Below, one piece after another: positions 12,466-51,479 of a stretch of 64,000 bases of DNA. A program made the translations under genes and the position numbers. The stretch is taken from contig NZ_CP049199.1 of NCBI RefSeq assembly GCF_011045195.1, positions 1,984,001 through 2,048,000 of the forward strand. The letters are read 5' to 3'. The notes under the pieces were generated by a model, which saw nothing but the letters and a program-made list of their open reading frames with translations, was not told where the DNA came from and searched no databases. Every line of letters starts with the position of its first letter. The first letter of the stretch is position 1. The DNA is from Caulobacter soli (GTDB taxonomy: Bacteria; Pseudomonadota; Alphaproteobacteria; Caulobacterales; Caulobacteraceae).

Positions 12466-12480
12466 TTTTTACCGTCTTCT

Positions 12481-28289: not shown

Positions 28290-28500
28290 GACGTTATCTG
28301 TCGAGGCAGGTCTCCTGGCTCACGGGTCATCACCCCTGTCCTGGCCTTCCCGACACGCCACCGATCCAGCTTCGGCGCGTCAGTGACACGTATTGGACAG
28401 CGGCTCGCCGCTCACAGTTGCGGGGGCAGCGCCGGGCTCGGGATTTCACCCCCTCACCGACTTCCCTCTTAGCTGCGGACGCAAGCGTGCGTCCGCAGAA
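28290..28500 (-). promoter_or_regulatory. Cobalamin riboswitch in the metE leader
   Basis: On the minus strand the leader contains AAGAGGGAAGTCGGTGAG, GCTGCCCCCGCAACTGT and the B12 box AGCCAGGAGACCTGCC (28305-28320), in the correct order and spacing for an AdoCbl riboswitch. A perfect 10-base stem (28473-28482 with 28489-28498) lies at its 5' end. Between the aptamer and metE ATG (about 120 bases) there are GC-rich hairpins but no T-run, so control is probably by translation or Rho and not by an intrinsic terminator. Confidence 0.95.
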
Positions 28501-28538
28501 CCACGACAAGCCCATGTGATCGTATCGGAGGAATGCCG

Positions 28539-28750: not shown

Positions 28751-29230
28751 ATGCGACCGGTCAGGGATATCGCGCAGCGGATGAAGGCCTCGTTGATGCG
28801 CAAGGGCGTGTCGATCACCGAGGTCGACGACCTTGTGCAGGAAGCCTTCGTTCGCCTGGCCAGCTACAGCCAGTCGAGCGAAGTCAATGAACCCGAAGGC
28901 TTTCTGATGCGCACGGCGTCCAACCTGGTTATCGACGAGCATCGAAGGCGAAAGCGAGCGAAGATCATCGATCAACCCGTGGAAGATTTGGCTTTAGTCG
29001 ATAATGAGCCGCTGCCGGATGCGGTTTGGGCCGGTCGAAAACGTCTAGAGAGATTGAACGCCGGTTTCGCGGCGCTCGATCCGGTGACGCGGCGCATGTT
29101 GCGGGCCCAGCGGGTCGAAGGGTCTAGCGTCGGCGAAATCGCACGGCGTGAGGGGTTGAGCGTGAGCGCGGTCGAGAAGCGTTTGGCCAAGGGCATGCTC
29201 TTTCTGGTGAAGTGGATGGACGGATGGTGA
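28751..29230 (+). CDS. ECF RNA polymerase sigma factor (secretion-locus regulator)
   Basis: A 159-residue ECF sigma factor of the FecI type. Region 2 is ITEVDDLVQEAFVRLASYS and EGFLMRTASNLVIDEHRRRKR. Region 4 is ALDPVTRRMLRAQRVEGSSV with GEIARREGLSVSAVEKRLAK. ATG 28751 follows AGGATCACC; the frame is open further upstream but the extra residues are not sigma-like. It overlaps the FecR gene by a few bases. It heads the two-partner secretion locus, so it probably transcribes that operon. I did not find a clear duplicated promoter motif upstream of it and of tpsB, unlike the other ECF locus in this window. Confidence 0.88.
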   Translation: MRPVRDIAQRMKASLMRKGVSITEVDDLVQEAFVRLASYSQSSEVNEPEGFLMRTASNLVIDEHRRRKRAKIIDQPVEDLALVDNEPLPDAVWAGRKRLERLNAGFAALDPVTRRMLRAQRVEGSSVGEIARREGLSVSAVEKRLAKGMLFLVKWMDGW

Positions 29231-30198
29231 GGGACGGCAAGACCGCGCTGAACGAAGCGCCGGACCGCGTCCTCGCCGAGGCGGCCCTCTGGCTCGTGCG
29301 CGACAAGGGGCGGGCCGAGACGAAGGCCGAGCAGGGACGTGCGCGGTGGATGGCGGAAGACCCCGTCCATGAGGCGGCCTATGCGCGGACCTTGTCGGTC
29401 TGGGACGACCTGGGTCAGGTCGCGCCGGACTGGAAGTCCGATCGCGCCGCGCCGGGCCTGCGGATCCGGGCTCGCGAACTGGCGCTGGCGTGCCTGGTCG
29501 TCTGCGTCTGCGCGCTGGGCCTGTTCGCGCACCTGCGCGACCCGGACTACACCACCCGCGTAGGCGAGCAGCGTACGGTGCAACTGGACGACGGCACGCG
29601 CGTCACCCTCAACACCGGTACCCGTATCGTCGTGCGGTACAGTCGCGGCGAGCGACACATTCGCCTCGACCACGGAGAGGCCTATTTCGACGTCGCCCAC
29701 AACGCCGCCCGTCCGTTCTTCGTCGACGCGGGGCATGACTATGTCCGGGCGCTGGGCACGGTCTTCATCGTTCGCAACGACCAGCCTAAGCTGGAGGTGA
29801 CCTTGCTGGCGGGCGCGGTGCAGGTGGGCAGCCGCGACGCCGAGGCGAGGGGGGCGTCGGTGATCCTGGCGCCGGGCGACCGGTTGCGCCGAGACGGCGA
29901 GACCCAAGGTTTGCTGGACCGGCCTTCCCTCGACACCGTGACGGCCTGGCGGCAAGGCGAGCTGGTGCTCGAAAATACGCCGCTGCTGGTCGCGGTCGGC
30001 GAGATGAACCGCTACACGCGCCGTCCGATCCAGATCAGCGTCGCCGACGCCGCGGGCGTGCGCCTGAGCGGGGTGTTCAAGACCGGCGACAGCGACGCCT
30101 TCGTCGCCACGCTGGCGGCGCTCTATGGCTTCAAGCTAGACAAGCGCCCCGACGCCTTGGTGCTGTCGGGCGCGCCGGTGCGGGCCGCGCGCTCCTGA
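29224..30198 (+). CDS. FecR-family anti-sigma factor (secretion-locus regulator)
   Basis: A 324-residue inner-membrane signal relay. The cytoplasmic N-terminus contains EAALWLVRDKGRAETKAE, followed by a Cys/Leu-rich membrane segment (ALACLVVCVCALGLFAHL, about residues 88-106). The periplasmic FecR domain follows (VGEQRTVQLDDGTRVTLNTG, HGEAYFDVAHNAARPFFVD, ALGTVFIVRN). The last 70 residues (GEMNRYTRRPIQISVAD to DKRPDALVLSG) are the STN-contacting region. ATG 29224 overlaps the sigma stop. No TonB receptor follows; instead the locus encodes a TpsA with a C-terminal STN domain, the likely partner. Confidence 0.9.
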   Translation: MVRDGKTALNEAPDRVLAEAALWLVRDKGRAETKAEQGRARWMAEDPVHEAAYARTLSVWDDLGQVAPDWKSDRAAPGLRIRARELALACLVVCVCALGLFAHLRDPDYTTRVGEQRTVQLDDGTRVTLNTGTRIVVRYSRGERHIRLDHGEAYFDVAHNAARPFFVDAGHDYVRALGTVFIVRNDQPKLEVTLLAGAVQVGSRDAEARGASVILAPGDRLRRDGETQGLLDRPSLDTVTAWRQGELVLENTPLLVAVGEMNRYTRRPIQISVADAAGVRLSGVFKTGDSDAFVATLAALYGFKLDKRPDALVLSGAPVRAARS

Positions 30199-30334
30199 TC
30201 GGACGCGCGGCCAAACTATTTTGAAATTTCCGGTGTGGTTTCGCACCGCTGCGGCGTCCTTGATCTGACGCGCTAGACCGGTCGGGCGATTGTGACGCCC
30301 GCGCCCCGCTTTCATCGCGTTCCAGACTTGCAGG

Positions 30335-30372
30335 ACCGATCGTGGATCGGTGCGCGCGGTGTGTCCGCGCGC
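30335..30372 (+). terminator. Tandem hairpins downstream of fecR
   Basis: Two perfect stems in a row: ACCGATC/GATCGGT (30335-30351) and GCGCGCGG/CCGCGCGC (30352-30372), the latter followed by CTTGTTCTGT, which is moderately T-rich. They probably end the sigma-fecR transcript. The 135 bases before them (30199-30334) show no gene. Confidence 0.55.
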
Positions 30373-30374
30373 CT

Positions 30375-30520
30375 TGTTCTGTAAGTACATCTCGAACGAT
30401 TCTGTTCTGTATTTTCCAGTATACTGAAAACTATAGAGTCTATTTTTGACTCATGGCGACATGTGAAATCATTATTTCAATAAATTACGTGAGTTTCACA
30501 AAACTTATACATTGGAAATG
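30375..30520 (+). promoter_or_regulatory. AT-rich control region upstream of tpsB
   Basis: A strikingly AT-rich island in a GC-rich genome. It holds a direct repeat TGTTCTGTA (30375-30383 and 30403-30411), a perfect palindrome CAGTATACTG (30417-30426) with partly symmetric flanks, a GAGTC/GACTC pair, a dyad TGAAAT/ATTTCA (30464-30479) and a FecI-like -35 candidate GGAAAT (30514-30519). It most likely carries the promoter and operators of the secretion operon. Bases 30521-30660 form an untranslated leader with no recognised element. Confidence 0.6.
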
Positions 30521-30660
30521 TAGACCGCCTTCCAGAGATTTTGAGGCTCCGTCCGATGATCATCTTGATCGGGGAGGGCGGTGTCTTGCGGCGTGATGTT
30601 GTTTTTCGCGCCGATAGTCGTGGCGACCTTGAGTGTCGGGGCGTCGGAAGGGGGCTTTGA

Positions 30661-32280
30661 ATGCAAGCGGTTGGTTCGCGCTGGGCTTGCGCGGCTGTGA
30701 TGGCGGTTGCGTGGGCGCATGGCGCCGTCGCGCAGGAAGCGCCTGCTCCGGCGGACGCGGGCAAGCCCGTGGAGCGCCGGGTCGATCTTCTCAACTATCG
30801 GGTCGAGGGCAACACGGTCCTGTCGCGCCTGGATGTCGAGAAGGCGGTCTATCCTTTCCTGGGTCCGCAACGCAGCGCGGACGATGTCGAGGCGGCGCGC
30901 GCCGCCCTGGAAAAGGCCTATCGCGACAAGGGCTATGAAACCGTCGGGGTCGAGATCCCCGAACAGGATGTGCAGGACGGCGTCATCCGTCTGACGGTGG
31001 TGGAGTTGAAGGTCGGCCGCCTGCGAGTGACCGACGCGCGACACTTCTCGCCCGAGGATATCAAGAAGCGCGCACCGGCCCTGGCCGAGGGCCAGGTGCC
31101 CAACTACGCGGCGGTTTCCAAGCAGGTCCTGGAGCTCAACAAGACCAACGCCGACCGCACGATCACGCCGACGCTGCGCGCCGGGGACACGCCGGGCACG
31201 GTGGACGTCGACCTGCAGGTGCAGGACGCCCTGCCGCTGCACGGTTCGCTGGAGCTGAACGATCGCAGCAGCAGCCGCACCGAGCGCCTGCGCGTCTCCG
31301 GCTCGGTTCGCTACACCAACCTCTTCCAGCGCGAGCACAGCCTCAGCCTGCAAGGTCAATTCGCGCCGCAGGACCCTAAGCAGACCTGGCTGGTGACGGG
31401 ATCCTACGCCGCGCCGATCCAAGGCACGCCGTTCACCGTCGTGGCCTACGCGGTCCATTCCGACAGCGACGTGGCGGCCGTGGGCGGCATCAACGTGGTC
31501 GGCAGCGGCGACATCTTCGGCCTGCGCGGCATTTACAGCTTCTCGTCGGGCGGACTGTTCCACACCCTGACCGCGGGCGTCGACTACAAGAACTTCAAGG
31601 AAGATCTGATCGTCGGCCCCGAGTACGGCCACACGCCGATCGACTACTATCCGCTGACGCTGCAGTACGGCCTGATCGGTCGGGGCGAAAAGGACGACGT
31701 CGACCTGACGGTGGCGTTGAATGTCGGCCTGCGCGGGCTGGATTCCGACGAGGCCGAGTTCCGCTTCAAGCGCTACAACGCCAGCGCCAACTGGGCCTAT
31801 CTGCGGGCCGACGCCTCGTATGTGCGTCGCCTGCCTTGGGACATCCGGGCCAGCCTCAAGCTCTCGGGCCAGTATGCGGGCCAGCCGTTGATCAGCAACG
31901 AGCAGTTCAGCGCCGGCGGCCTGGACAGCGTGCGCGGCTATTACGAGAGCCAGGAATTGGGCGACGACGGCGTCTCGGGCCAGTTCGACCTGGAAAGCCC
32001 CTCTATCCATCGCTGGTTCGGCGGCGTGGTCGACGAATGGCGGTTCTTCGCCTTCGCCGACGGGGCCTATCTGAAGATCTACGATCCGTTGGCCGACGCC
32101 ACCGGCGCGCTGGACGACACGTCCAGCCTGGCCAGCGTCGGTTTCGGCATGCGCCAGCGGCTGCTGCGTCGCGTGAACCTGTCGGCCCTGTTGGCCGCCC
32201 CCCTCAAGAACAAGCAATCGACCATCATCGACTACGGCGATGACTGGCGCGGACAGTTCCGCGTCTGGCTCGATTTCTAG
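30661..32280 (+). CDS. Two-partner secretion transporter TpsB (ShlB/FhaC/HecB family)
   Basis: Outer-membrane barrel that exports a cognate TpsA protein. 539 residues, the normal size. After a signal peptide (cleavage near AVAQE) comes a ShlB-type POTRA domain (about 40-115: LLNYRVEGNTVLSRLDVEKA, QDVQDGVIRLTVVEL), a second POTRA (about 115-195), and the barrel with the family hallmark region around FSAGGLDSVRGYYE (the VRGY motif). It ends in Phe (VWLDF). ATG 30661 follows GAAGGGGGC. The TpsA partner is encoded seven genes later at 37372. Confidence 0.93.
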   Translation: MQAVGSRWACAAVMAVAWAHGAVAQEAPAPADAGKPVERRVDLLNYRVEGNTVLSRLDVEKAVYPFLGPQRSADDVEAARAALEKAYRDKGYETVGVEIPEQDVQDGVIRLTVVELKVGRLRVTDARHFSPEDIKKRAPALAEGQVPNYAAVSKQVLELNKTNADRTITPTLRAGDTPGTVDVDLQVQDALPLHGSLELNDRSSSRTERLRVSGSVRYTNLFQREHSLSLQGQFAPQDPKQTWLVTGSYAAPIQGTPFTVVAYAVHSDSDVAAVGGINVVGSGDIFGLRGIYSFSSGGLFHTLTAGVDYKNFKEDLIVGPEYGHTPIDYYPLTLQYGLIGRGEKDDVDLTVALNVGLRGLDSDEAEFRFKRYNASANWAYLRADASYVRRLPWDIRASLKLSGQYAGQPLISNEQFSAGGLDSVRGYYESQELGDDGVSGQFDLESPSIHRWFGGVVDEWRFFAFADGAYLKIYDPLADATGALDDTSSLASVGFGMRQRLLRRVNLSALLAAPLKNKQSTIIDYGDDWRGQFRVWLDF

Positions 32281-32311
32281 AACGCACGATCTCGACTGGA
32301 GAATGACTGAG

Positions 32312-34117: not shown

Positions 34118-34128
34118 GGGGAGGGCCG

Positions 34129-34533
34129 ATGCAAGCGCAGTCCCGACGCAAGCCCTACGACGAGATCAACATCACACCGATGTTGGACCTGGCGTACGTC
34201 CTGCTGATCATCTTCATCATCATGACCACGGCGGCGGTCCAGGGCATCAAGGTCAATGTGCCCAAGGCCAGCTCCTCGGTCAGCCTGGCCAAGCCGACGA
34301 CCAAGGCGATCACCGTCGACAGCAGCGGGCAGGTCTACCTGGACACCTATCCGGTGACGATCGACGAGCTGGAGTCACAGCTGCGCTCGTTCAAGGCGGT
34401 GACGCCCGACTTCCCGGTGGTGATCAAGGGCGACCGCGTCTCGCAGTATGGCCGGATCATGGAAGTGCTGGACGCCTGCGGGCGGGTCGGCATCACCCAG
34501 CTGGGCCTCGTCAGCGAACGCGCCAAGGGGTGA
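34129..34533 (+). CDS. exbD: Biopolymer transport protein ExbD/TolR
   Basis: A 134-residue partner of ExbB. One N-terminal membrane segment contains the essential Asp (INITPMLDLAYVLLIIFI, D20), followed by a small periplasmic domain (KAITVDSSGQVYLDTYPVT to GRVGITQLGLVSE). It couples proton flow to TonB movement. ATG 34129 has GGGGGAGGG upstream; the gene starts 11 bases after the ExbB fusion and ends 8 bases before tonB. Clearly one operon. Confidence 0.95.
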   Translation: MQAQSRRKPYDEINITPMLDLAYVLLIIFIIMTTAAVQGIKVNVPKASSSVSLAKPTTKAITVDSSGQVYLDTYPVTIDELESQLRSFKAVTPDFPVVIKGDRVSQYGRIMEVLDACGRVGITQLGLVSERAKG

Positions 34534-34541
34534 GGCCGACC

Positions 34542-35225: not shown

Positions 35226-35251
35226 GCCGACGCGACGATCCAGGAACCATC

Positions 35252-36808
35252 ATGCGAATCCAGACCGCTCTTCTCTGCGCCGCCGCGACGCTGGTCACCG
35301 GCCTTGCCGCCGCGCCGGCCCCGGCCCACGCGCAATCCACCGACGACATCGGCGTCGAGATCCTGCAACTGCTCGTCGACGAGGGCCTGTTGCCCCGTGA
35401 AAAGGCGCAGGAGCTAATGGCCCGCGCCAAGCACGCGGCCGAGCTGCGCCATCAGCGCGAGGCCCCTGCGGCCCCGGGCGTCATCGACGTGCCTTACGTG
35501 CCTGAAGTGGTCCGCAACCAGATCCGCGACGAAGTGCGTCAGGAAGTGGTGGCCCAGGCCAAGACCGAAGGTTGGGTCGCGCCCAACACCATTCCCGCCT
35601 GGCTCAACCAGGTCACCCTCTCGGGCGACTTCCGCATGCGTTACCAGGGCGAGTTCTTCGACAAGGGGAATTTTCCCTACTTCCCGGACGTCAACGCCAT
35701 TAACCAGGCCGGCGGCGTCACGGACGCCAGCGGCTTCCCGCTGCTGAACTCGACCGTCAACCGTCACCGCGCCCGCTATCGCGCGCGGCTGGGCGTCGAC
35801 GCCAAGATCAATTCGGCGGTGAAGGTCGGTTTGCGCCTGGCCTCGGGCGACGACGCCGGCGCCATCTCGACCAACAAGACCTTGGGCGACTTCTTCAACA
35901 AGGACCCGATCTGGATCGATCGGGCCTATGTCGAGGTCACGCCGGTCGCGGGCCTGAGCTTCACGGGCGGCCGGATGCCCAACCCCTTCTGGTCCACCGA
36001 CATGGTCTGGGATCCGGACATCAATCCCGAGGGCGCGGCCATTTCGGCGCGTCATGACTTCGGCGAGCACCTGGCCGGCCTCAAGCTGTTCGGCGTCGGC
36101 GGCGCCTTCCCGCTGCAGGAACGCGGCAAGGACCACAAGGACCGCTGGATGTACGGCGCCCAGGTCGGGTTCGAGATCGCGCCGGTCGACGCGGTGACGG
36201 TCAAGGGCGCGGTGGCCTACTACGCCTATGATCGCGTGCAGAGCGAGAAGAACGCGCCCGACGGCTCGCGCCTCAACGACTTCACGGCCCCGCCGTCGCT
36301 GTCCCAGGGCAACTCGGTGTTCAACATCCGCACCGACGGTCTGACCACCCTGGCCGGCCTGGCTTCGGACTTCAATCTGCTGAACGTCACGGGCAGCCTG
36401 ACCTACAACGGCTTCGGCGCGAACAAGGTGAAGCTGACCGCCGACTACGTGGTCAACCAGTCGTTCGACGCCGCCCAGATCGCCAAGCTGCGCGGCGAGG
36501 ACGGCGTGGCTCCGGGCGACTCCGGTTGGCAGCTGCGCCTCGACGCCGGCCGCGACAGCATCAAGAAGCGCGGCGATTGGCAGGTGGCGGCGGCCTACAA
36601 GCGCATCGAGACCGACGCGGTGCTCGACATCTTCACCGACAGCGACTTCGGTCTCGGCGGCACCGATGTGAAGGGCTACGTGATCGACGCCAACATCGGC
36701 ATCTACGACAACACCTCGGTCGGGGTGAGCTGGCTGAGCACCAACGCCATCAGCCGCCCGCCGTTCGCGGTCGACGTCCTGCAGCTCAACCTCAACACCC
36801 GGTTCTGA
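35252..36808 (+). CDS. Putative outer-membrane porin
   Basis: A 518-residue exported protein: signal peptide ending at AHAQS, a helical segment rich in charged residues (about 30-105, IGVEILQLLVDEGLLPREKAQ), then a beta-barrel domain beginning near LSGDFRMRYQGEFFD and ending in Phe (LNLNTRF). This is the layout of the 'putative porin' family, in which the helical part may anchor to peptidoglycan or trimerise. ATG 35252, 26 bases after tonB. Its presence in a secretion locus suggests it is a client of the local TonB or an accessory at the surface. Confidence 0.85.
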   Translation: MRIQTALLCAAATLVTGLAAAPAPAHAQSTDDIGVEILQLLVDEGLLPREKAQELMARAKHAAELRHQREAPAAPGVIDVPYVPEVVRNQIRDEVRQEVVAQAKTEGWVAPNTIPAWLNQVTLSGDFRMRYQGEFFDKGNFPYFPDVNAINQAGGVTDASGFPLLNSTVNRHRARYRARLGVDAKINSAVKVGLRLASGDDAGAISTNKTLGDFFNKDPIWIDRAYVEVTPVAGLSFTGGRMPNPFWSTDMVWDPDINPEGAAISARHDFGEHLAGLKLFGVGGAFPLQERGKDHKDRWMYGAQVGFEIAPVDAVTVKGAVAYYAYDRVQSEKNAPDGSRLNDFTAPPSLSQGNSVFNIRTDGLTTLAGLASDFNLLNVTGSLTYNGFGANKVKLTADYVVNQSFDAAQIAKLRGEDGVAPGDSGWQLRLDAGRDSIKKRGDWQVAAAYKRIETDAVLDIFTDSDFGLGGTDVKGYVIDANIGIYDNTSVGVSWLSTNAISRPPFAVDVLQLNLNTRF

Positions 36809-36818
36809 GGGGGCTCGC

Positions 36819-37340
36819 ATGCGTCACGTCATCATCGCCGCCGCGCTCTGCGGCGCTCTCCACGTTCCCGCCGCCCAAGCGGCCGCGGCCAAGCCCATGC
36901 CCGCCGCGGTCGTCCCGGCCGCCGACCAGGTCCTGGCGCTTCAGGCCGAGTTGGCCGACCTGCGCGATCGCTATCAGCGCCAGCAGGTCGTCGCCGACAA
37001 CGCCCGCCAGGAGACCGACGCCCTGCGCGCCGAGCTCAAGCTGAAGGATGAACTTCTGGTCCTGGGCCGGCAGCGCAACGCGGAGCTCTACACGATCTCG
37101 TCGGAGATCCTGGACCGGCTGGCGCGCCGCAAGAGCCTGGAGCCTTTCGTTCAGGCCCATCGTGTCTCGATGGAAAACAAGGTGCAGGACTACGAGGATC
37201 GCCTGCGCGCGGCCCGCGTCTACGACACGACCCTGCCGCCCAGTGTCCAGCTGCGTATGCAGCAGGAACTGAGCGCCAAGGCCGCCGCGGCGCCGGACCC
37301 TGCCCAGGCCGCGGCCCCGACCTCACCCGCCCAACGCTGA
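36819..37340 (+). CDS. Periplasmic coiled-coil protein of unknown function
   Basis: A 173-residue protein with a signal peptide (cleavage near AQAAA) and a long coiled coil (about residues 33-75, LALQAELADLRDRYQRQQ). A second helical stretch and an Ala/Pro-rich tail follow (AAAPDPAQAAAPTSPAQ). No enzyme motif. The gene starts 10 bases after the porin and ends 31 bases before tpsA, so it belongs to the operon. A scaffold or chaperone role for TpsA passage is possible but unproven. Confidence 0.78.
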   Translation: MRHVIIAAALCGALHVPAAQAAAAKPMPAAVVPAADQVLALQAELADLRDRYQRQQVVADNARQETDALRAELKLKDELLVLGRQRNAELYTISSEILDRLARRKSLEPFVQAHRVSMENKVQDYEDRLRAARVYDTTLPPSVQLRMQQELSAKAAAAPDPAQAAAPTSPAQR

Positions 37341-37371
37341 TTTTCTTCCAGACCCGTTCCTGGAGTACGCC

Positions 37372-43300: not shown

Positions 43301-46300
43301 CGGAAGCCTTCCTCAAGAAGGCGCTGCGCACCAACCGACCGATCGGCGATGTGCCGCGTATTCCCCTGGACGGCGGCAGCGTGGTCCTGAAAGCCGCGCG
43401 CAGCTTGAACCTGGACGCCACCTTGAAGTCCGCGGCCGCGGAAGGTGGGCGCGGCGGTTTCGCCGACATCGACGCCAGCCGTATCGTCGTGGTCGGCGCC
43501 AATTCCGACCTGACCAAATATGCGGGCTATCTGGTCCTCGACAGCGATCGTCTGAACTCGTTCGGCGCCGAAAGCCTGCTGTTGGGCGGCACGCGTCGCC
43601 AAGGCGAACAAAGCCTGGAGCTGGCGATTTCCGGCCAGGATGTGGTGATCGACAACACCGGTTCGGTGCTGAAGGGCCCGGAACTGCTGTTCGCCGCCCG
43701 TGACAAGGTCACGGTGGAAAACGGCAGCGTGATCGAGACCAGCGGCAAGATCAGCGGCAGCTCGGGCGACCTGCGCATCCTGCCGGCCTTCGACAAGGTG
43801 GTCGATCCTGGCCAGCCCTGGGATCCGAACGACGACGTCACGGTCAACGCCGCGCTCGACCAGGGCGCGGTGCTGCGGCTGTCCAGCGGCGAGCAGGTTT
43901 CGGTTCTGCGCAACACCGCGGCGATCGACGCGATGTCGGCGCTGCGCGCCGATCCCGTCGCCCTGGCCGCGGCCAACGCCAAGCGCGTCGCGATGGGTCT
44001 GTCGCCGATCGTTCCCGCCGGCAATCTGGTGATCGCCGACGGCGCGGTTCTGCGCAGCAGCCGGTCGATCGTTCTGGACGCCACGATGGACACCCAGCTG
44101 TCACGCCAAGCGACCCTGGACGCGGCGCAGATCAGCGCGGCGGCGTCGCGGATCAGCATCGGCGCGGCGCCGATCGGCACGGCCGGCCTGGTGTTCGCGG
44201 GGGGATCGGCCGAGGCCCTGGCTTCGGCTACCGACCTCACGCTCAAGAGCTATTCGACCATCGACATCTACGGTGGGGCGACCCTGAAGGCTGCCGACGG
44301 CCTGCGCCTGGACAGCCGCGAGATCCGCCTGCTGAACGCCAACGGCGCGACGGCCACCATTGCCGGCCAGTCGGTGACCCTGGCCAACACCGCCGACGCC
44401 AGCGCGACCGCGCCGACGATCGGGACGGGCAAGCTTCTGATCGACGCCACCAACATCTATCTGGAAGGCGGCGACAAGCGGATCTCCGGCGTGGATCTGG
44501 TGACCCTGCGGGCCGGCCAGCGCGTGATCGGACGCGAGACAGGCACGTTGTTCCTGCCCGGCGACCTGGTTGTCGAGGCGGCCAATTTCACCGTCGAAAG
44601 CGGTGGGCAGACCTTCCTGGACGCCGTCGGGGCGGTGACCATCGCCAACAACGGCCGCACCGACCTTCCGCCCATGACCACCTTCGGCGCGACCCTCGGC
44701 TTCACCGGCAATACGGTGACGAACACCGGGCGCATCCTGCTGACGGGCGGCACGGTCAATCTGCGGGCCCGCGGCGGAGACGTGGTGCTGGCGGATAGTT
44801 CGAGCATCGACGTGACCAGCAGCGTCAGCCAGATCTTCGACACCCTGGTCGGTGTCGGCGCGGGCACGATCAACCTCACCTCCGATCATGGAGACGTGAG
44901 GATGGCGACGGGCGCCGTGGTCGACGTTTCCGGCACGACCGCTGGCGGCGACGCTGGTCGTCTCAACATCGCGGCCGGTCAGGGACAAGCCGACATGCGC
45001 GGCCAGATGAAGGGCGCATCCCACGGCGGGGCGCAGAGCGGCTCGTTCTCGATGGTCGCCAGCCAGATCGCCGACTTCAGCGCCTTCAACGCCGCGCTGG
45101 ACAGCGGCGGTTTCATGCAGTCGCGCCGCTTCGAGGTGAGCCAAGGCGATCTGGACGTCACCGGAACCATCCGGGTTCAGAACTTCTCGGCCATCGCCAA
45201 CCAGGGCTCGATCAACGTCACCGGCGTCGTGCGCACCACGGGCGACTCTGGTGGTCGCATCCAGATCTCGGCGACCGACAACGTCAACCTGGCCGCGGGC
45301 TCGCAACTGCTGGCCAAGGCCAATGCGGCGGACGGTTCGGGCGGCACGGTGTTCTTGGAGACCACCGGCCGCAACGGCGGCCAGGTCTCGGTCGCCGCCG
45401 GTTCGCTGATTGATGTCAGCGGTACGGGCGAGGGCGGCCGGCTGGTGCGCCTGCGGGCTCCGCAACTGGCCGGCGGCGACGTCGCCATCGCGCCGGTCCA
45501 GGGCTCGATCCTGGGGGCGCGCCAGGTGATCGCCGAGGGCTTCAAGGTCTATGACAACGTCTCGACCATCGACCAGTCGGTGATCAACACGGTCTCGGCC
45601 GACGCCAACGCCTTCATGGCGAACGCAGCGGCCATCCGGGCCCGACTGGGCTCGGGCGTCACCGTCCAGCCCGGCATCGAGCTGCGCAGCGCTGGCGACA
45701 TGACGCTGGCCACGGATTGGGATCTCCACACCCTGCGCTTCAACGGCGCGGCCGGCGTCCTGACCCTGCGGGCGGCGGGCGACCTGCTGCTGAACGCCAA
45801 TCTCAGCGACGGCTTCGATAGGGCCGGCGCCGACGCCACCCTGGTCGGCGGCGCGTCGTGGACGCTGAACCTGGCGGCCGGCGCCAACATCATCAGCCCG
45901 GACTCGCTGGCGGTGCTGCCGGTCGGTCAGCTGGCCACCGGCAAGGGTTCGGTGATCGTCGGCGGCACGCCCGACACCATCGAATACTATCGCGTGGAGA
46001 TCACCAGCGGCCCGCGCGCCGGCACGACCGAGAACCGCCTCTACGTCCGCAACGGCGACGGCACGGTGGGCCCGGAGCTGAGCCGCGATGCGGCCACGGG
46101 CCAGTATGTCGACCCCGACAGCGGCGCGCTGATCGCCTTCGATCCCACGACTAACGACTATGTCGACACCCAGCGCTACGCCCGTGTGGCGCTGCCCGAA
46201 TACTTCGCCGTAAACAACGGCGGCGGTCAGGGGGTCCCGTGGGATCAGTATGGCAATGGCGAACCTTCGCAGATCACCCAGTACGGCCAGAGCCGCGGCG

Positions 46301-49300
46301 TGCAGTGGGACAATTCCACGGGCTACATCGTGCGTACCGGCACGGCCGGGATCAACATCGGCAGCGGTCGGGACATCGTCCTGCAATACAAGCCGTCGGT
46401 GATCTACACGGCGGGTGACTACGCCGCGCCGGTCGCCGACTTCGCCGCGCCCACGCGCCTGCCGTTGGACGCTTCGGCGGGCCTCTGGGGTCCGATGAGC
46501 GGCTACTACCTGCAAGGCGGCGGCGACATCCTGATGAAGGCCGGCGGCGACATCGTCGGCGCGGGCAGCGACCAACTGCCGAACGCCTGGCTCTGGCGCT
46601 ACGGCAACGTCAACACCGTCGGAGACTTCAAGACGCCCGACCTCATGGGCTTCAAGGACCTGGGGCGCGACTACGACCAGACCACCTGGTTCGTGCGCTT
46701 CGACCGCTATCAGGCCGGGATCGGCGCCTTGGGCGGCGGCAATGTCGACATCAGCGCGGCCGGCGACATCACCAACCTGACCGTCAACCTGCCCAATACC
46801 GGTCGGGTCAGCGGGGGTCACGATGGGCTGGCCAAGGTTCTGCACACCGACGGCGGCGGCAACCTCTCGATCTTCGCGGGCGGCAACATCGGCACCGGCA
46901 ACTTCTACGTCGCCGAGGGGCAGGCCCAGATCACGGCGGGCGGGGCGTTCACCACCACCCGGCAGATCGACGCGATCCGCAGCTCTGGGTACGGCGTGAA
47001 CCAGAGCCGTGGCTACGATCTCTACACGATGCTGTTCACCTCTTCGGGCGACTTCCACCTGCAGAGCGGCGGTGATCTGAACATCGACGCGGTCCTGGAC
47101 CCGCTGGCGCTCGCGCCGGTGATGAACAACCAACTGGGCGGCGGCGGCGTGTTCGGCGTCGGCGGCTATCAGCAGCACCAGGGCGACGACCGGGATCGCG
47201 AGCTCTACGGCGCGGCCTTCTTCAGCTACACGCCGGACGCCAAGATCGCGCTGTTCTCAGCGGGCGGCGACGTCAACCTGTGGAACAACTACGGCAACAT
47301 CGGCATCGTCGCCTGGAAGGGCGGCTTCATCCAGCCCCAGCACAACTTCGTCACGCCGTATGGCTACACGATCGGCGACGCCGGTCAGGTCCCCGCCGTC
47401 TGGCCGGGTACGCTCAGCGCGGTGGCGGCGGCCGGTGACGTGGTCGTCAAGGGCGGTCTCTACTTGGCGCCGTCCCCGACCGGCAATCTGGAGCTTCTGG
47501 CCCATAACGACGTGCGGCTGGGGCAGGGGACACGAGCCGACGACCCCTTCGCCGAGCTCAATCGCGACGCTCAGAACTTCTTCCCCGGCTACGAAGGGAT
47601 CTTCATGAGCCAGTCGCTGCTGGAGCTGATGCCCAGCGCGACGAACGTCCGCATGCTTTATGGCTCGGCCGCGCCGCAGGGGCTGCTGGAACAGGCCGGC
47701 TTCAAGCCGGGCGGCTCGGTCTCTCAGACTCAGCTGTTCACGCCGACCTACAGGCCCGACCTGCACGAGGGCGACACCAACCCGGCCAAGATCTACGCCG
47801 CGGTAGGCGACGTGGTGACCACCGCGCCGATCAACCTGCCCAAGGCGCTGTTGGTCCAGGCCGGCGACAATGTCTACTTCCCCAACTTCCAGCTGCAGCA
47901 CAACAACGCCACCGACTACAGCCTGGTGCGGGCCGGCAACGGCCTCTACTTCTCCAACGCTGGCCAGATCGCGATCACGGGTCCCGGCCGCCTGGAGGTC
48001 GAGACCGGTCACGACTTCTACATGCCCAGCAACGGCAAGGGGATCACCAGCGGCCGGGTTCTGGTCTATGCGGACGGCCTGGCCGGCAACCAGGCGCCGC
48101 CGCCGCCTTCACCGCTGGACCCGAACGCCACAGCCGCCGATATCGCCATCAGCACCGGCTTCAACCAGACGCCGTCCTACCAGGCGTTCGAGGACGCCTA
48201 CCTCAATCCCGAGAAGGCCGGCGGCATGGCCGACTTCCTGCTGGATGACGCGGGTGACGGCCGCAAGCTGTCTTACTACCTGTTCGACCGCGTTTATAAC
48301 CGGGGCGGCGATCCGAAGAGCCAGCCGATGACGCCGGAACTGCGGGCCGGTTTCGTCAACTATGTGCGCGGCCTGCAGGGGCTGAAGCCCCTGGACACCC
48401 AGATCGAGCAGACGGCCTATGTGGCGACCGCGTGGAGTTTCTGGGCGGACTTGCCGCTGGACCAGAAGACGCCATTCGACGCCTTCCTGCCGCGCGGACC
48501 TGGCGTGAAGGCTCTGCGCGCCGAGAACTACCTGCCCGAAACGCACGAAGGCCTCGTCAACTACGTGCGCCAGTTGCAAGGGCTGGATCCGCTGGACAGC
48601 CAGGCCGAGCAACTGGCCTATCTCGACACGGCCTGGTCCTATTGGTCGACGCTGTCGAACGATCGCAAGACGCCGTTCTACCGGGATGTGCTGTTCCTGG
48701 AACTGCGCACCACCGGACGCGAGGCCAACGCCCCCGACAATCCGCGCAGCGGCTCCAGCTTCCGGGGCTACGACGCCATCAAGGCCCTGTTCCCGGGTGC
48801 CGAGAAGCCGGACGGGACGGCGCTGGGCGCGGGTGAATCGCGCTGGGCGGGCGACTTCGAGACCTATGCCAGCCGAGTGATCTCGTCGGGCGGCGGCAAG
48901 ATCGAGTTCGTCTCTCCGGGCGGCGGCTTCAAGCTGGCCAACTCGGCGGCCAAGCCAGGCGACACCGGTCAGCCGGCCTTTGAAGGCGACCGTGGCAATG
49001 CGCTGCGGGCCGGCGTGGTCACCACCGACGGCGGCGGGATCAACATCTTCGCCCGCCAGAGCGTGACACTGAACCAGTCGCGCGTGATGACCACCAAGGG
49101 CGGCAATATCCTGATCTGGTCGTCCTACGGAGACATCGCGGCGGGCAAGGGCGCCAAGACCTCGGTCACCGCGCCGTTCTACGACTACAATATCGACGGT
49201 TGGGAGCGCATGAACCGGGTCCAGGCCGGTCTGCCCACCGGCGCCGGCATCCAGACGGTCGCCAGCGTCGCCGGCTCGCCGGTGGCGGACGTCGACCTGA

Positions 49301-49956
49301 TCGCGCCCAACGGGGTCGTCGACGCCGGCGACGCGGGCATCACGGTCAGCGGCAACTTCAACGTCTTCGCCATCGAGATCCTGGGCGCCGACAATATCGA
49401 CGTCTCGGGCATCGCCACGGGTCTGCCGACGCCGCCGGCCGCCGCGCCGATCTCGCTGGACAACCTGTCGTCCAAGTCCAACGACGTGGAGAAGGCCATC
49501 GAGATGGCGGTGAACGGCATCCGCCAGAACGCCGCCATCGTGTCGCCCTCGATCATCGAAGTGCAGGTGACGGGCTTCGGCGACTGCCAGAGCCAGGACG
49601 CGGCGTGCGCGCCCCCGGCCAAGCCTGAGCAGATCTCGCAAGAGACGGTGACCGGTCGCTTTGTCACGCCGATGCGCGTGGCCTTCGACGACCGGCCGGC
49701 TCCGCCCAAGCCGCAAGACTTCGACATCGCGCCTCAGCCTCTGGCCGATGCGGTGCGAGCGGTGGGCCGGGCGTCGGGCGTCAACATTCTCTACGACGCC
49801 GACACCTTTGCTCAACGGCGCTCCTCGCCCGTGCGCGGTCGAATGACGCCGGAGCAGGCGCTGGAGCAATTGCTCATGGACCAGCATGTCACCGCGATGC
49901 GGGTCGGGGCGGGCACTATCGTGCTGCGCCGCGCCCGCCCCGGCATGACCGGCTGA
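37372..49956 (+). CDS. Filamentous haemagglutinin-type TpsA exoprotein with C-terminal STN domain
   Basis: A 4194-residue secreted adhesin-like protein, exported by TpsB. A signal peptide ends near AGAQS (residue 40). The N-terminal TPS/haemagglutination region is present as two tandem units (about 92-165 and 186-260; WIAVNR and WIALNR), with NDNGVLIGP in place of the usual NPNG motif. A very long beta-helical stalk follows, full of G-x-I/V and 'DVSG' turns. Near residues 3660-3770 are two copies of a helical repeat. The last 78 residues (4117-4194) are an STN domain, FDIAPQPLADAVRAVG to TIVLRRA. ATG 37372 follows CTGGAG. The STN end is the natural partner for the FecR of this locus. Confidence 0.93.
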   Translation: MTRSLLVASRRLRGASHWLAGASLVAMAVATGVTPAGAQSTPFGSMVGMQAGKVILPGGAVSQWSGANRPTIGTAADGRPLMTIEQTQQKALLDWEQFKLQTNEVLEFQQQSADWIAVNRVHGAAAAEVNGEIRAKGRVFIFNDNGVLIGPNAKINTRQLVTGQGVSDVLLDGATTTIVQSRERATLNWTDMSMAAGQVLKFQQEKKDWIALNRSMTPGVTTLAGSIEAPGNIYLVAPQGLAINGSVKAQQVIASSLNIGDDQFAVGLNSYARDYNNRLDPTFSNTWIYNWGYSTESYKNLAKDLPVVVDPNDPLRYNVTVGRSGSIETGQFGKVMLFGPRVTNQGRIKVVDEGQVVLAAGENIYLNTAPGGQANVSVGAYNPLAFLRANIAYSGPSNVVSDVGWQNFYLKLTGVQYAIGDVVPYAVISSLTSGGKIESFLNNLQYERARDVGYVASNEGVITSLRGGEVDFRGLNLNQMGSIEMTSTALFRGKINFATIVRDYREYPNGDMDGPDVPGHGVVTFGKGSLTQITPDLDSTDSIPVGSGSQSVGSLKINAAQVHLQEDSLIYMPSGKVNILLDAAGNLYDNNRGQGANQDNEDGTRFMMDRGATIDLSGWRNTVLAMGSNRVTGKLFAAQLSDSPLQRDGALYRQEISVDRRYGTNLAAWSSFDNLSQGTLAQFLTDGGSFTLDVDDDFIMKPGSVIDVSGGLTTYEAGYVYTTLLRRLDGSIIDIREADPDELYMGLANQWTQYDTKWGKSQTFYIPLISSLQGKYETSYVQGGAGGKIEILAPDAVLQGTVKGAVTAGRYQRANLPKGGSFILNKAGIDEGEYVSNNVLISAIETMLPDSFGLFDKLSDVYGDQFGEEFDRDEDKPNRGVRTFDNTTLTSDDFFNRSTMGSYSLSQANRVDGLHNPFPALDGTAVVVESGVNLNLANGASFALNAEERMQFFGSIRTEGGAVSLSGMSLEFAKDTRLDTRGSWYSDYEVLEPVSSDTLPRINGGAITLWAGGNSLLAPVDDVRMILPDTMVIDSSAGAWVNRQGKLTLGKGGNLSVTAGLLDAQDLDLSGLDHARAYGLGGNGGFSLALETPIYIGDALPAPETPVDPADPEPNIRLLSSAFFSHSGFSSITLQAPSITVGENVRVDATTASLRLKEGTLLDPAPPAFWAPSGTDVYDIAEPVYMAPELRSSALRRGMDITFNGGTAVLEGASVSTEVGGKLTIGGSANIQGTLNAPAGQITLSGGDTSSVVLGKNARLLAQGVALITKRGLTKDGRATVSGEVLPGGQISINAGKVVFEAGAVLDVSGASAAFDFTTNALGTVVLQPQTVASDAGSISIAGDAMDINSATYRAFAGGPGARGGSFSVSWGGRYGPPGGPPPGRTAAQVVDDLEFYFQQGYVYDVNFNVLTTPYGVDLSTVLWEWLTGFPIPFPAGTTVSNRAELLKTFNDYTVAAYGPPPVFMIGDNLPPPITGAPPTMPTLDPSLEALFVAFGYVPPAPVAEPAASVRLSTARIADGGFSSFQVAASPGVVFVGDATLGGKKADGSFVFDSISIDTPRIMGQAGANVRLEAGVVRLSGGGASNGDFGDTSIYDIALANMDVRRLSADTRLSIAADTLLQIQGAEFYGFSDTLLASQGDIRLVGQASQPINGVYAAPASSVSSPGKISFKADQLYVATGHKVDVTSEDTIRILPQDAGTPLNGSPYEAAAQLTLTAPNIIQGGIVRSPLGTINLVAVDGPAGPGSVVLAAGSITSTSGDGHVIPYGFVSNGDTWIDPYTKLELTVLPAKSVNISGQSVDLQEGAVIDVSGGGDLYAREFVAGIGGTTDWLTGYRDADYKWVSSPDQIFAVLPSFEGDIAPYGLTGGGGLGVGDKIYLAGGSGLKAGYYTLLPAEFALLPGGFRVTANHGHTDLNVMMPGQHVDLADGSSIQSGYRYTEGTPYRDTVNHGFMVMNGDTLRMRSQYNEITANGFFTSEAFLKKALRTNRPIGDVPRIPLDGGSVVLKAARSLNLDATLKSAAAEGGRGGFADIDASRIVVVGANSDLTKYAGYLVLDSDRLNSFGAESLLLGGTRRQGEQSLELAISGQDVVIDNTGSVLKGPELLFAARDKVTVENGSVIETSGKISGSSGDLRILPAFDKVVDPGQPWDPNDDVTVNAALDQGAVLRLSSGEQVSVLRNTAAIDAMSALRADPVALAAANAKRVAMGLSPIVPAGNLVIADGAVLRSSRSIVLDATMDTQLSRQATLDAAQISAAASRISIGAAPIGTAGLVFAGGSAEALASATDLTLKSYSTIDIYGGATLKAADGLRLDSREIRLLNANGATATIAGQSVTLANTADASATAPTIGTGKLLIDATNIYLEGGDKRISGVDLVTLRAGQRVIGRETGTLFLPGDLVVEAANFTVESGGQTFLDAVGAVTIANNGRTDLPPMTTFGATLGFTGNTVTNTGRILLTGGTVNLRARGGDVVLADSSSIDVTSSVSQIFDTLVGVGAGTINLTSDHGDVRMATGAVVDVSGTTAGGDAGRLNIAAGQGQADMRGQMKGASHGGAQSGSFSMVASQIADFSAFNAALDSGGFMQSRRFEVSQGDLDVTGTIRVQNFSAIANQGSINVTGVVRTTGDSGGRIQISATDNVNLAAGSQLLAKANAADGSGGTVFLETTGRNGGQVSVAAGSLIDVSGTGEGGRLVRLRAPQLAGGDVAIAPVQGSILGARQVIAEGFKVYDNVSTIDQSVINTVSADANAFMANAAAIRARLGSGVTVQPGIELRSAGDMTLATDWDLHTLRFNGAAGVLTLRAAGDLLLNANLSDGFDRAGADATLVGGASWTLNLAAGANIISPDSLAVLPVGQLATGKGSVIVGGTPDTIEYYRVEITSGPRAGTTENRLYVRNGDGTVGPELSRDAATGQYVDPDSGALIAFDPTTNDYVDTQRYARVALPEYFAVNNGGGQGVPWDQYGNGEPSQITQYGQSRGVQWDNSTGYIVRTGTAGINIGSGRDIVLQYKPSVIYTAGDYAAPVADFAAPTRLPLDASAGLWGPMSGYYLQGGGDILMKAGGDIVGAGSDQLPNAWLWRYGNVNTVGDFKTPDLMGFKDLGRDYDQTTWFVRFDRYQAGIGALGGGNVDISAAGDITNLTVNLPNTGRVSGGHDGLAKVLHTDGGGNLSIFAGGNIGTGNFYVAEGQAQITAGGAFTTTRQIDAIRSSGYGVNQSRGYDLYTMLFTSSGDFHLQSGGDLNIDAVLDPLALAPVMNNQLGGGGVFGVGGYQQHQGDDRDRELYGAAFFSYTPDAKIALFSAGGDVNLWNNYGNIGIVAWKGGFIQPQHNFVTPYGYTIGDAGQVPAVWPGTLSAVAAAGDVVVKGGLYLAPSPTGNLELLAHNDVRLGQGTRADDPFAELNRDAQNFFPGYEGIFMSQSLLELMPSATNVRMLYGSAAPQGLLEQAGFKPGGSVSQTQLFTPTYRPDLHEGDTNPAKIYAAVGDVVTTAPINLPKALLVQAGDNVYFPNFQLQHNNATDYSLVRAGNGLYFSNAGQIAITGPGRLEVETGHDFYMPSNGKGITSGRVLVYADGLAGNQAPPPPSPLDPNATAADIAISTGFNQTPSYQAFEDAYLNPEKAGGMADFLLDDAGDGRKLSYYLFDRVYNRGGDPKSQPMTPELRAGFVNYVRGLQGLKPLDTQIEQTAYVATAWSFWADLPLDQKTPFDAFLPRGPGVKALRAENYLPETHEGLVNYVRQLQGLDPLDSQAEQLAYLDTAWSYWSTLSNDRKTPFYRDVLFLELRTTGREANAPDNPRSGSSFRGYDAIKALFPGAEKPDGTALGAGESRWAGDFETYASRVISSGGGKIEFVSPGGGFKLANSAAKPGDTGQPAFEGDRGNALRAGVVTTDGGGINIFARQSVTLNQSRVMTTKGGNILIWSSYGDIAAGKGAKTSVTAPFYDYNIDGWERMNRVQAGLPTGAGIQTVASVAGSPVADVDLIAPNGVVDAGDAGITVSGNFNVFAIEILGADNIDVSGIATGLPTPPAAAPISLDNLSSKSNDVEKAIEMAVNGIRQNAAIVSPSIIEVQVTGFGDCQSQDAACAPPAKPEQISQETVTGRFVTPMRVAFDDRPAPPKPQDFDIAPQPLADAVRAVGRASGVNILYDADTFAQRRSSPVRGRMTPEQALEQLLMDQHVTAMRVGAGTIVLRRARPGMTG
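37648..38140 (+). repeat. Tandem duplication of the TPS unit in tpsA
   Basis: Two units share the protein pattern W..(6-8)..VL-E/K-FQQ..DWIA-V/L-NR..G-x-I-x-A..(I/V): residues about 92-165 and 186-260. Repetition is visible at protein level; DNA has diverged. Confidence 0.6.
48352..48681 (+). repeat. Two helical repeats near the TpsA C-terminus
   Basis: Copies begin at 48352 and 48553 (201 bases apart). Shared protein pattern: VNYVR-x-LQGL-x-PLD-x-Q-x-EQ, then AY..TAWS-F/Y-W and KTPF. These are alpha-helical and stand out from the beta-helical stalk. Confidence 0.7.
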
Positions 49957-49964
49957 TGACCGAT

Positions 49965-49994
49965 CGCCCCGCCTTCCTTGGGGAGGGCGGGGCG
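49965..49994 (+). terminator. GC-rich hairpin after tpsA
   Basis: Perfect 9-base stem CGCCCCGCC/GGCGGGGCG starting 8 bases after the tpsA stop. No T-run follows. It may partly terminate or protect the tpsA message while letting some transcription reach the chaperone gene. Confidence 0.5.
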
Positions 49995-50059
49995 CGCCTC
50001 CTGAACTCAACCTCACGTCGGGCGTCCGCGCCTGGCCGATCATCATCAAGGACGATCCC

Positions 50060-50677
50060 ATGAACACCCCCCTCGCCGTGGTCCTGGCCACGGCCGTGAT
50101 TTCCGCTGTCGCCGCGCCGAGCCACGCTCAAGGCCAAGCGACGTCTTCCCCGACCCTGAACGAAGGACCGGTGGTGGCCGGTGTCTGCCTGATCTCGCGG
50201 GAGGCGATCTTCGCCAACGCCAAGGTGGGGCAGGCGGCCTCCGCTCGGCTCAAGCAATTGGCCGACGCGGCCGAGGCCGAGGTCGAAAGCGACCGCAAGC
50301 CGTTGGACGCCGAGATCAAGGCGTTCCAGGCCGAGGCCCCCAAGTTGCCGGACGCGCAACGCCGGGCGCGCGAACAAGCCCTGGGCGCGAAACTTCAGCC
50401 CGTGCAGGCCAAGGCGGCTTTGCGTGGCCGTGAGATCGAGGCCACGCGGACCAAGGCCATGGGGCGCATCGCCGACGCCGCCCAGCCCGTGATCGCCCAG
50501 GTCTTCAAGCAGCGCGCCTGCGGCCTGCTGCTGGACCGCAATTCGGTGCTGGCCGGCAACATGACCAACGATCTGACCCCGGCCGTCGTGCAGGGGCTGG
50601 ACGCCAAGATTTCGACCATCGCGTTCGAGCGTGAAGTCCTGCCGCCTCAGGCGGCCGGCGCCGTCCCGACGCGCTAG
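50060..50677 (+). CDS. Skp/OmpH-family periplasmic chaperone
   Basis: A 205-residue exported protein: signal peptide ending near SHAQG, a short beta segment (VVAGVCLISREAIFANAKVGQAASARL in family layout), long helices rich in charged residues (the Skp tentacles), and a C-terminal strand (QRACGLLLDRNSVLAGN). Skp proteins keep outer-membrane and autotransporter-like substrates unfolded in the periplasm. It has two Cys that could form a disulfide. Lying directly after tpsA, it is probably a dedicated chaperone for the 4194-residue TpsA. ATG 50060. Confidence 0.85.
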   Translation: MNTPLAVVLATAVISAVAAPSHAQGQATSSPTLNEGPVVAGVCLISREAIFANAKVGQAASARLKQLADAAEAEVESDRKPLDAEIKAFQAEAPKLPDAQRRAREQALGAKLQPVQAKAALRGREIEATRTKAMGRIADAAQPVIAQVFKQRACGLLLDRNSVLAGNMTNDLTPAVVQGLDAKISTIAFEREVLPPQAAGAVPTR

Positions 50678-50720
50678 ACGCGACCTCGCCGCTCATTTCC
50701 TGTTTCGGAGTTTCCCTGCC

Positions 50721-51479
50721 ATGGCGTCCAAACCGCGCGCCGCGTCGACACCCCCGTTGCCGCTGTTCTATCGTGATCCGCTTCCGCTCTCCGCCTCGGT
50801 CCACGCCGCTTGGCGTCTGAAGGAGGGCGATGCGGCCTTCGCTCAGGACGCGGCCTATGCGCCGTTGGTTCTTGGCGAGTTGGCCGCCGCCTCGGCCAGC
50901 TATCCCGTGGTCTTCGCGGGCGAGCAGGCCGCGCCGGTCGCTATCCTGGGACTGGAGCAGCGCAACCTGTTCGTCGCCGACGGCCAGTGGGCCCCGTTCG
51001 TCCACGTGCCCGCCTATGTGCGACGCTATCCCTTTGGCTTCATCGCCACCCGCGATCCTGACGACTTCGTGCTGGCGATCGACGCGGGATCGGATCGTGT
51101 CGTTCAGGCGGGTGAGGAGGGCGAACCCCTGTTCGAGGACGGCAAGCCCAGCGCGCTGACGCTCCGAGCCCTGGCCTTCTGCGACGCCTTCAAGAGCGAG
51201 GCCGCCGCCACCGCCGCCTTCAGCCAAGCCTTGCTGGACAAGGGGCTGCTGATCGAACGTCGCGCCGACGCCACCTTGCCGGACGGCCGCAAACTGGGCC
51301 TTGAGGGCTTTCAGATCGTGGACTACGAGGCGTTTCAAGCCTTGGACTCCGACACGCTCGTCGACTGGCACGCCAAGGGCTGGCTGGCCTTGATCAACTT
51401 TCACCTGGCCTCGCTCGACCGTTTCCGCGTGCTGCTGGACCGTGAAGGCGCCGCCGCGGTCGAAGGTGGCGCGACCTAG
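50721..51479 (+). CDS. SapC-family protein
   Basis: A 252-residue protein without a signal peptide. It matches the SapC family, visible in PLFYRDPLPLSASVHAAWRL, YPVVFAGEQAAPVAILGLEQRNLFV and PFVHVPAYVRRYPFGF. The family is named after a Campylobacter S-layer gene; its function is unclear, and in Caulobacterales it often accompanies TonB receptors. ATG 50721 chosen because homology begins just after it; the frame is open about 30 codons upstream into the skp gene. It starts 43 bases after skp, so it is probably the last gene of the secretion operon. Confidence 0.85.
   Translation: MASKPRAASTPPLPLFYRDPLPLSASVHAAWRLKEGDAAFAQDAAYAPLVLGELAAASASYPVVFAGEQAAPVAILGLEQRNLFVADGQWAPFVHVPAYVRRYPFGFIATRDPDDFVLAIDAGSDRVVQAGEEGEPLFEDGKPSALTLRALAFCDAFKSEAAATAAFSQALLDKGLLIERRADATLPDGRKLGLEGFQIVDYEAFQALDSDTLVDWHAKGWLALINFHLASLDRFRVLLDREGAAAVEGGAT

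Follow-up and report, generated by a model that had tools for sequence, protein, structure and literature searches.

The locus described here lies in a 64,000-nucleotide stretch of the Caulobacter soli genome (contig NZ_CP049199.1, positions 1,984,001 to 2,048,000; the window) and encodes a two-partner secretion (TPS) system whose secreted protein, TpsA, ends in an STN signalling domain. Eleven genes, all on the plus strand with short or overlapping gaps, encode in order an extracytoplasmic function (ECF) sigma factor, a FecR-type anti-sigma factor, the transporter TpsB, a DUF2341-ExbB fusion, ExbD, TonB, a porin, a small protein, TpsA, a Skp-like chaperone and a SapC family protein (Table 1). 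The widest intergenic gap (462 bases) separates fecR and tpsB. A first-pass annotation, made from the sequence alone, had named these genes in this order, and Pfam supported the set, with TonB slightly under its cut-off. Both partners of a type Vb system were present, a TpsA with a TPS domain and a TpsB with POTRA domains and a ShlB/FhaC barrel. The annotation had read the stretch as two-partner secretion linked to a sigma factor and FecR and equipped with a private ExbB-ExbD-TonB set, a reading supported here. The same module was found in other genomes, so the locus is more than a chance arrangement and the possibility that its gene order is conserved nowhere falls away.

The STN domain on TpsA had been overlooked in that annotation, and it offers an explanation for the presence of the sigma factor and FecR. 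Pfam placed it at the C-terminal end, after DUF3739; these two and the TPS domain were the only Pfam matches over cut-off in TpsA, which has no TonB-receptor plug or barrel. A six-frame search of the whole genome also found the domain, in a 4227-residue open frame. Among the 16 STN-bearing (fused) TpsA tails collected from this and other genomes, Pfam confirmed the domain in all 10 submitted, and the other six were detected only by a hidden Markov model (HMM) built in this analysis. A profile of the 10 tails gave 13 matches in the PDB at E up to 0.1 (best 2.9e-8), every one a TonB-dependent transducer or its signalling domain (HasR, FpvA, FemA, PupB, FecA and PupA). The predicted structure of the tail had a mean predicted local distance difference test score (pLDDT) of 66.9 and was confident only in the STN part (pLDDT about 75-90), which resembled FpvA and PupB (Foldseek E 3.2e-7 and 2.5e-6); the linker was predicted at low confidence and no conserved TonB box was seen in it by eye. 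STN residues were conserved across diverged fused copies, at the same position in three groups of bacteria. A protein search with the last 155 residues of TpsA returned two proteins only, the window's own and P0002 from a Caulobacter sp.; more exist, and the low number reflects a limit of the word search. P0002, known as a protein only, was 88% identical to the window TpsA over the tail, and it makes the domain composition of fused TpsA visible in public databases.

Directly before STN lies a cysteine pair, found at this place in all 16 fused TpsA, most of which hold further cysteines. About 115 residues including STN follow the pair in the window TpsA. In HMW1 and HxuA, a C-terminal disulphide loop is considered to trap the tail in TpsB so that its end stays in the periplasm (PMC5422565; this and the other papers cited by PMC number are used from excerpts of their text). 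The window TpsA shares with these proteins a cysteine pair near the C-terminus but differs in carrying a signalling domain in the residues after it. At their C-termini, the unfused TpsA of Peristeroidobacter soli and of a Solimonas metagenome-assembled genome shared 62% and 61% identity with the query over the matched part. They stop 9 and 4 residues beyond the corresponding cysteine pair, and no STN, sigma factor or FecR is present in their stretches.

The partner domain of FecR proteins is periplasmic. Residues 111-303 of the window FecR matched the C-terminal signalling domain of PupR (6ovk_R, E 3.7e-20), and the solved complexes 6ovk and 6ovm each pair PupR with PupB. The window STN and FecR are homologous to the two chains of one such complex. 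The PupB-PupR interface has been tested by mutation (PMC11429574), and in the FoxA/FoxR pair the signalling domain is described as binding the anti-sigma factor in the absence of signal and shielding it from proteolysis (PMC11637429). Like the TonB-dependent transducers that work with FecI/FecR (FecA, FpvA, PupB, FoxA), the window system has an STN domain, a FecR homologous to PupR and a FecI-like sigma factor; its STN is C-terminal on a secreted protein, whereas theirs is N-terminal on an outer-membrane receptor.

Table 1. Features of the two-partner secretion locus, in window coordinates.
Feature	Position	Strand	Evidence or remark
ECF sigma factor, FecI-like, 159 aa	28751..29230	+	Pfam Sigma70_r2 36.0 bits, r4_2 35.6 bits
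FecR-type anti-sigma factor, 328 aa	29212..30198	+	Pfam FecR 82.5 bits
Candidate promoter for the sigma factor, GGTTT-N13-CGTCCTTG	30237..30262	+	Spacing common to the fecR-tpsB gap of the first-set fused loci
Terminator-like hairpin	30349..30373	+	In the fecR-tpsB gap, about 90 nucleotides after the candidate promoter
TpsB outer-membrane transporter	30661..32280	+	Pfam ShlB 70.5 bits, POTRA_2 65.9 bits
DUF2341 - LamG-like - ExbB/TolQ fusion, 625 residues	32240..34117	+	Pfam DUF2341, Laminin_G_3 and MotA_ExbB in one protein
ExbD/TolR	34129..34533	+	Pfam ExbD 100 bits
TonB-like protein, 229 aa	34536..35225	+	TonB_2 21.1 bits, weak, just under the cut-off of 22
Porin_5 family outer-membrane protein	35252..36808	+	Pfam 508.9 bits
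Small protein, 173 aa, apparent signal peptide	36819..37340	+	Coiled coil according to the first-pass annotation only; relatives at the same position in several loci
TpsA, 4194 aa, with C-terminal signalling tail	37372..49956	+	Pfam TPS, DUF3739 and STN over cut-off
TPS secretion domain of TpsA	37615..38172	+	PF05860, in two pieces
DUF3739 of TpsA, residues 3910-4020	49099..49431	+	Pfam 98.7 bits
Cysteine pair C4072 and C4079, putative disulphide anchor	49585..49608	+	Sole cysteines in 4194 residues, just before STN
STN signalling domain of TpsA, residues 4137-4188	49780..49935	+	Pfam 31.4 bits, cut-off 28.4
Skp/OmpH-like periplasmic chaperone	50060..50677	+	Pfam OmpH/Skp 76.0 bits
SapC family protein	50721..51479	+	Pfam 201.3 bits; start codon picked from the translation

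The first-pass statement that no described system combines all these genes did not hold. The PUMA3 (Vre-Pdt) locus of Pseudomonas aeruginosa, described from 2009, contains VreA, an ECF sigma factor and an anti-sigma factor with pdtA, pdtB, exbB2 and exbD2 (PMC2729926), to which later papers add tonB4 and a putative porin (PMC4971064, PMC7035377), and the 2009 paper already reports such an association in other bacteria. Novelty of the bare gene combination is thus ruled out. The two systems (vreAIR, pdtA, pdtB, exbB2, exbD2, tonB4 and PA0696 in P. aeruginosa) share an ECF sigma factor with a membrane anti-sigma factor, a large TpsA, TpsB, ExbBD-TonB and a putative porin. However, in P. aeruginosa STN belongs to VreA, which is a periplasmic protein of its own and ends in a TonB/TolA-like part, and in the window it is the C-terminus of TpsA and there is no VreA; the window locus also has no type II secretion gene among its genes. 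In the best trees the sigma factor and FecR of the fused type form their own clade, and their P. aeruginosa counterparts are known here by published description only. In the excerpts of PMC4971064 and PMC7035377 the function of VreA is called unknown, and the input read by VreA/VreR and the role of signalling genes beside two-partner secretion are called unknown or left open. Among the matches listed in searches of the open-licence literature, a scope outside which most subscription papers fall, there was no paper on an STN fused to TpsA. The gene combination is known and the STN-on-TpsA wiring is new.

To compare the two arrangements, loci were collected from a 199-genome sample of the window's family, samples of its class (385 genomes) and phylum (398 genomes) and named genome contigs, with further samples from the family of Sphingomonas gei, Sphingomonadaceae (298 genomes), and again from the window's family (390 genomes). 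All loci were found through the TpsA C-terminus, and the counts cover TPS systems with DUF3739. Genes were annotated with HMMs built from the sequences of this analysis, the Pfam check covering the window and 10 fused tails. VreA was defined as a frame shorter than 450 aa that those HMMs matched to STN at E < 1e-5; in the window's genome, Pfam placed one VreA-like protein over its cut-off and two below, and another (4066867) was not listed. All 16 fused loci with reachable DNA were covered, two of them (G157 and ERG5) without upstream sequence. About 39 of the 73 listed unfused rows were fetched (12/13 from the 199-genome family sample, 6/9 from the class, 5/19 from the phylum, 2/2 from named contigs, 14/20 from Sphingomonadaceae and 0/10 new ones from the 390-genome sample), and the same genome may figure in more than one row, with two handles. 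Three contig-edge stretches (G071c70, G115, G1150b) and another TPS type (own2129) were left uncounted. A locus was scored as having no signalling genes when none lay in its stretch, about at least 9 kb upstream of tpsB or ~15 kb upstream of a lone TpsA.

In the window's family, 5 of 390 genomes carried fused TpsA (6 loci), and in Sphingomonadaceae 6 of 298 did (7 loci), with additional cases in named Sphingomonas records; apart from the window's own, none was found in the class and phylum samples at that sensitivity. The fused form is rare and occurs in a Caulobacter-like genome, Asticcacaulis and Sphingomonadaceae. Sigma factor and FecR were present in all 13 intact fused loci with upstream sequence, in one of them (the second copy of G094) across an inferred contig junction, and a short VreA was present in none of the 16 fused stretches. 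In the window itself, positions 20001-56000 hold no frame under 450 aa with STN, so there is no separate VreA. The VreA stretches had sigma factor and FecR in 27 of 28 cases. Taken together, both genes were present in every intact stretch of the fused or VreA type that had upstream sequence (40 of 40), and the 12 loci with neither STN form (10 with TpsB, two lone TpsA) carried neither gene within the stretch. Six of the fused loci were examined after a written prediction: five had sigma factor, FecR and ExbB-ExbD-TonB (the exception being G942), and all six lacked VreA and had the cysteine pair. The window's genome also holds three paralogous loci. Their TpsA stop at the cysteine pair, and a VreA-like protein is encoded separately, ahead of sigma factor and FecR.

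In G1186b, G1147 and G1211 (L112-L113, L116-L119), a variant in gene order was seen, with exbB-exbD-tonB ahead of tpsB. G551 (L059-L065), G834 (L070) and G755 (L075-L077) had several TpsA per genome, each with its own VreA-sigma-FecR set; since TpsB is missing from the stretch of some of them, a single machine may export more than one regulated substrate.

The two fused loci of G094 (Asticcacaulis group, one contig) share a 7,528-base tract that is 99.93% identical. It begins ~180 bases ahead of tpsB, covers tpsB, exbB, exbD, tonB, the porin and the small gene, and stops ~230 codons inside TpsA. Beyond the tract, identity fell to 61% for the sigma factor, 45% for FecR, 57.5% for STN and 36-76% per 300 columns for TpsA. 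The machine was kept alike, and the signalling pair and passenger stayed apart together. One of the junctions was inferred, as the contig end coincides with the tract edge; the pairing is supported by G060 and G068, where b-type FecR and b-type TpsA also occur together (from the FecR tree, and for TpsA from comparison with G060).

The FecR of fused loci formed one clade (100/100 with 8 rows; 99/93 with 13 rows), as did VreA-type FecR (100/99; 100/98). In the best trees the former fell among the FecR of TonB-receptor loci of the window's genome. The sigma tree was concordant, grouping the window sigma factor with TonB-receptor-type rather than Vre-type sigmas, which is not decisive, and the STN tree gave the same placement, though weakly supported (fused 73/52). 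An origin of the fused STN in a simple fusion of the VreA gene is not supported by the best trees (VreA-type FecR and sigma factors form well-supported clades of their own, STN weakly). Fused-locus TpsB formed one clade (95/97 with 9 rows; weak, 83/60, with 14) adjoining the Peristeroidobacter-Solimonas pair. Because that pair is without signalling genes, STN, FecR and sigma factor were probably gained together, or else lost together in the sister pair.

ExbB, ExbD and TonB lay in the same stretch as TpsB in all 45 fetched loci (14 fused, 21 VreA and 10 without signalling genes). As they accompany TpsB irrespective of signalling genes, they belong to the export machine. The first-pass annotation had suggested that these proteins power TpsA export or surface assembly by proton motive force. 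This is a separate claim, compatible with the signalling role of STN, and we regard it as possible but doubtful. It is favoured by the constant association, by a TPS system of another type in the same genome (G000:C1:2112001-2145000) that has no ExbB-ExbD-TonB, and by the G094 tract, which joins these genes with tpsB and the TPS domain. However, known TPS systems function without external energy, as shown in liposomes (PMC5422565), exbB2-exbD2-tonB4 of P. aeruginosa are called uncharacterised in the excerpt of PMC7035377, and the three proteins could instead serve the porin, envelope bracing or signalling.

All eight fused loci of the first set had GGTTY-N13-CGTC in the fecR-tpsB gap; on the coding strand before tpsB it was present in 0 of 12 VreA-type and 0 of 6 unsignalled loci. 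The motif was first seen by eye; it was the sole word pair (4-mer, gap of 10-19, 4-mer) shared by five representatives, and none of 100 shuffled sets had one. Genome-wide, the longer exact pattern had a single occurrence. Among five out-of-sample fused loci with a fecR gap, a version one base shorter was seen by eye in two and CGTCCTT in three. As a general rule for fused loci the motif was ruled out by its absence at the set spacing in these five, and it is likely a promoter of this subgroup only. Terminator-like hairpins were found in 6 of 11 fecR-downstream gaps (window 30199-30660 and its relatives), whereas shuffled gaps averaged 0.73 and reached at most 3. In four of the six gaps the hairpin lay about 40-95 nucleotides after the CGTCCTT site. 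Such hairpins may act as attenuators, belong to a small RNA or terminate the sigma-fecR transcript.

Among the remaining genes, the true start of the DUF2341-ExbB fusion is possibly 32303 or 32312, and the top score of its ExbB part was the TolQ model (131 bits, under the TolQ cut-off). For both ExbB and ExbD of the locus the TolQ/TolR models outscored the ExbB/ExbD models, all below cut-offs. The 173-residue protein had no match in Pfam or NCBIfam. Just upstream of the sigma gene, at window positions 28288-28520 on the minus strand, lies a cobalamin riboswitch (Rfam RF00174, 112.4 bits), which because of its strand was assigned to the divergent minus-strand gene, outside the locus. The window also holds a second, ordinary cell-surface-signalling set on the plus strand (10953-15632), consisting of a sigma factor, a FecR and a receptor-like protein of ~1020 residues with STN.

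TpsA proteins are exported N-terminus first through TpsB. On the evidence above, we consider it probable (roughly 0.7) that the STN of TpsA is the transducer for FecR, so that the exported protein would itself be the cell-surface-signalling transducer; within this reading we infer the location of the tail, the STN-FecR contact, the sign of its effect and the signal. Export would halt at the two-cysteine loop, by analogy with HMW1 and HxuA, leaving the STN-bearing tail of about 115 residues periplasmic and held at TpsB. Through contact with STN, FecR would sense if there is an anchored TpsA or if it has been pulled on or released. If this contact were lost or altered, FecR would be proteolysed and the sigma factor freed, a direction taken from the FoxA/FoxR precedent that could also be the opposite. 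The freed sigma factor would transcribe the tpsB-to-tpsA operon, perhaps from the candidate promoter between fecR and tpsB, and ExbB-ExbD-TonB would act on the export machine or its substrate.

Instead of being a transducer, STN could be an anchor or docking module only, for TpsB, TonB or the cell wall, with sigma factor and FecR sensing something else; weaker Foldseek matches include the N0 domains of secretins, which are structural, and VreA was dispensable in P. aeruginosa under the tested conditions (PMC4971064, PMC7035377). However, the best sequence and fold matches were signalling domains of TonB transducers, and sigma factor with FecR accompanied STN in all 40 intact stretches whose upstream sequence was available and was absent in 12 of 12 without STN, which makes a purely anchoring role unlikely. 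If the arrest of translocation that we infer did not occur, STN would be carried fully outside with TpsA and have an extracellular role, and the low-confidence linker leaves room for this. The cysteine pair directly before STN in all 16 fused TpsA, the disulphide anchor credited with retaining the tails of HMW1 and HxuA in the periplasm (PMC5422565) and the periplasmic partner domain familiar from the FecR family all argue against such a fate, which we judge quite improbable. Chance fusion with a neighbouring receptor gene could also have left a functionless in-frame STN, since the domain is small, sits at the very end and in one case (G942) belongs to a broken gene; to this we give hardly any credence, as STN retains its position across three groups of bacteria, has conserved residues and is accompanied by sigma factor and FecR.

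Several observations weigh against the transducer reading or its extension to related systems. The STN score in full-length TpsA exceeds the cut-off by only 3 bits. The loci share ancestry, so that the counts are not independent trials, and the unfused side consists of the fetched rows, about 39 of 73. The single VreA stretch lacking sigma factor and FecR is an orphan VreA beside a TpsA fragment in the window's genome (own4101), and the broken fused TpsA of G942 has as sole sigma factor and FecR in its stretch a pair adjoining a TonB receptor. The orphan VreA (L049, G000:C1:4101136-4105000) occurs with a 796-residue TpsA frame and SapC, ~34 kb from a complete paralogous locus, and looks like a remnant; the G942 gene (L114-L115, G942:C8:230574-233033) is an 819-residue frame with DUF3739 and STN, with no TpsB in the stretch. 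The short promoter pattern occurs in the window at chance level (1 found, 0.66 expected), and at the set spacing the motif was found in 0 of 5 out-of-sample fused loci. In P. aeruginosa, deletion of vreA is reported to have had no effect on regulon expression in low phosphate (PMC4971064) or on virulence in fish embryos (PMC7035377), which weakens an easy transfer of the model. Approximately unbiased (AU) tests did not reject trees that unite the fused and VreA types in one clade (p = 0.083, 0.225 and 0.299; 0.334 for the three joined) and are thus compatible with a shared origin, so two independent recruitments are not claimed.

A natural fusion of a signalling domain to the end of a secreted protein points to TpsA as what is read, and also to a measurable contact, that of STN with FecR. 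More tentatively, and at somewhat below even odds, the giant surface protein may be its own export sensor, in which the tail behind a disulphide lock would hold the anti-sigma factor, transcription of the operon would track the number or mechanical state of anchored TpsA and TonB would pull; the link between two-partner secretion and signalling may have arisen twice, through VreA and through the TpsA fusion. If the transducer role of STN is true, a secreted adhesin-like protein joins a kind of signalling known from nutrient receptors, and STN, as the last ~60 codons of tpsA, would provide a clean genetic handle on sigma output.

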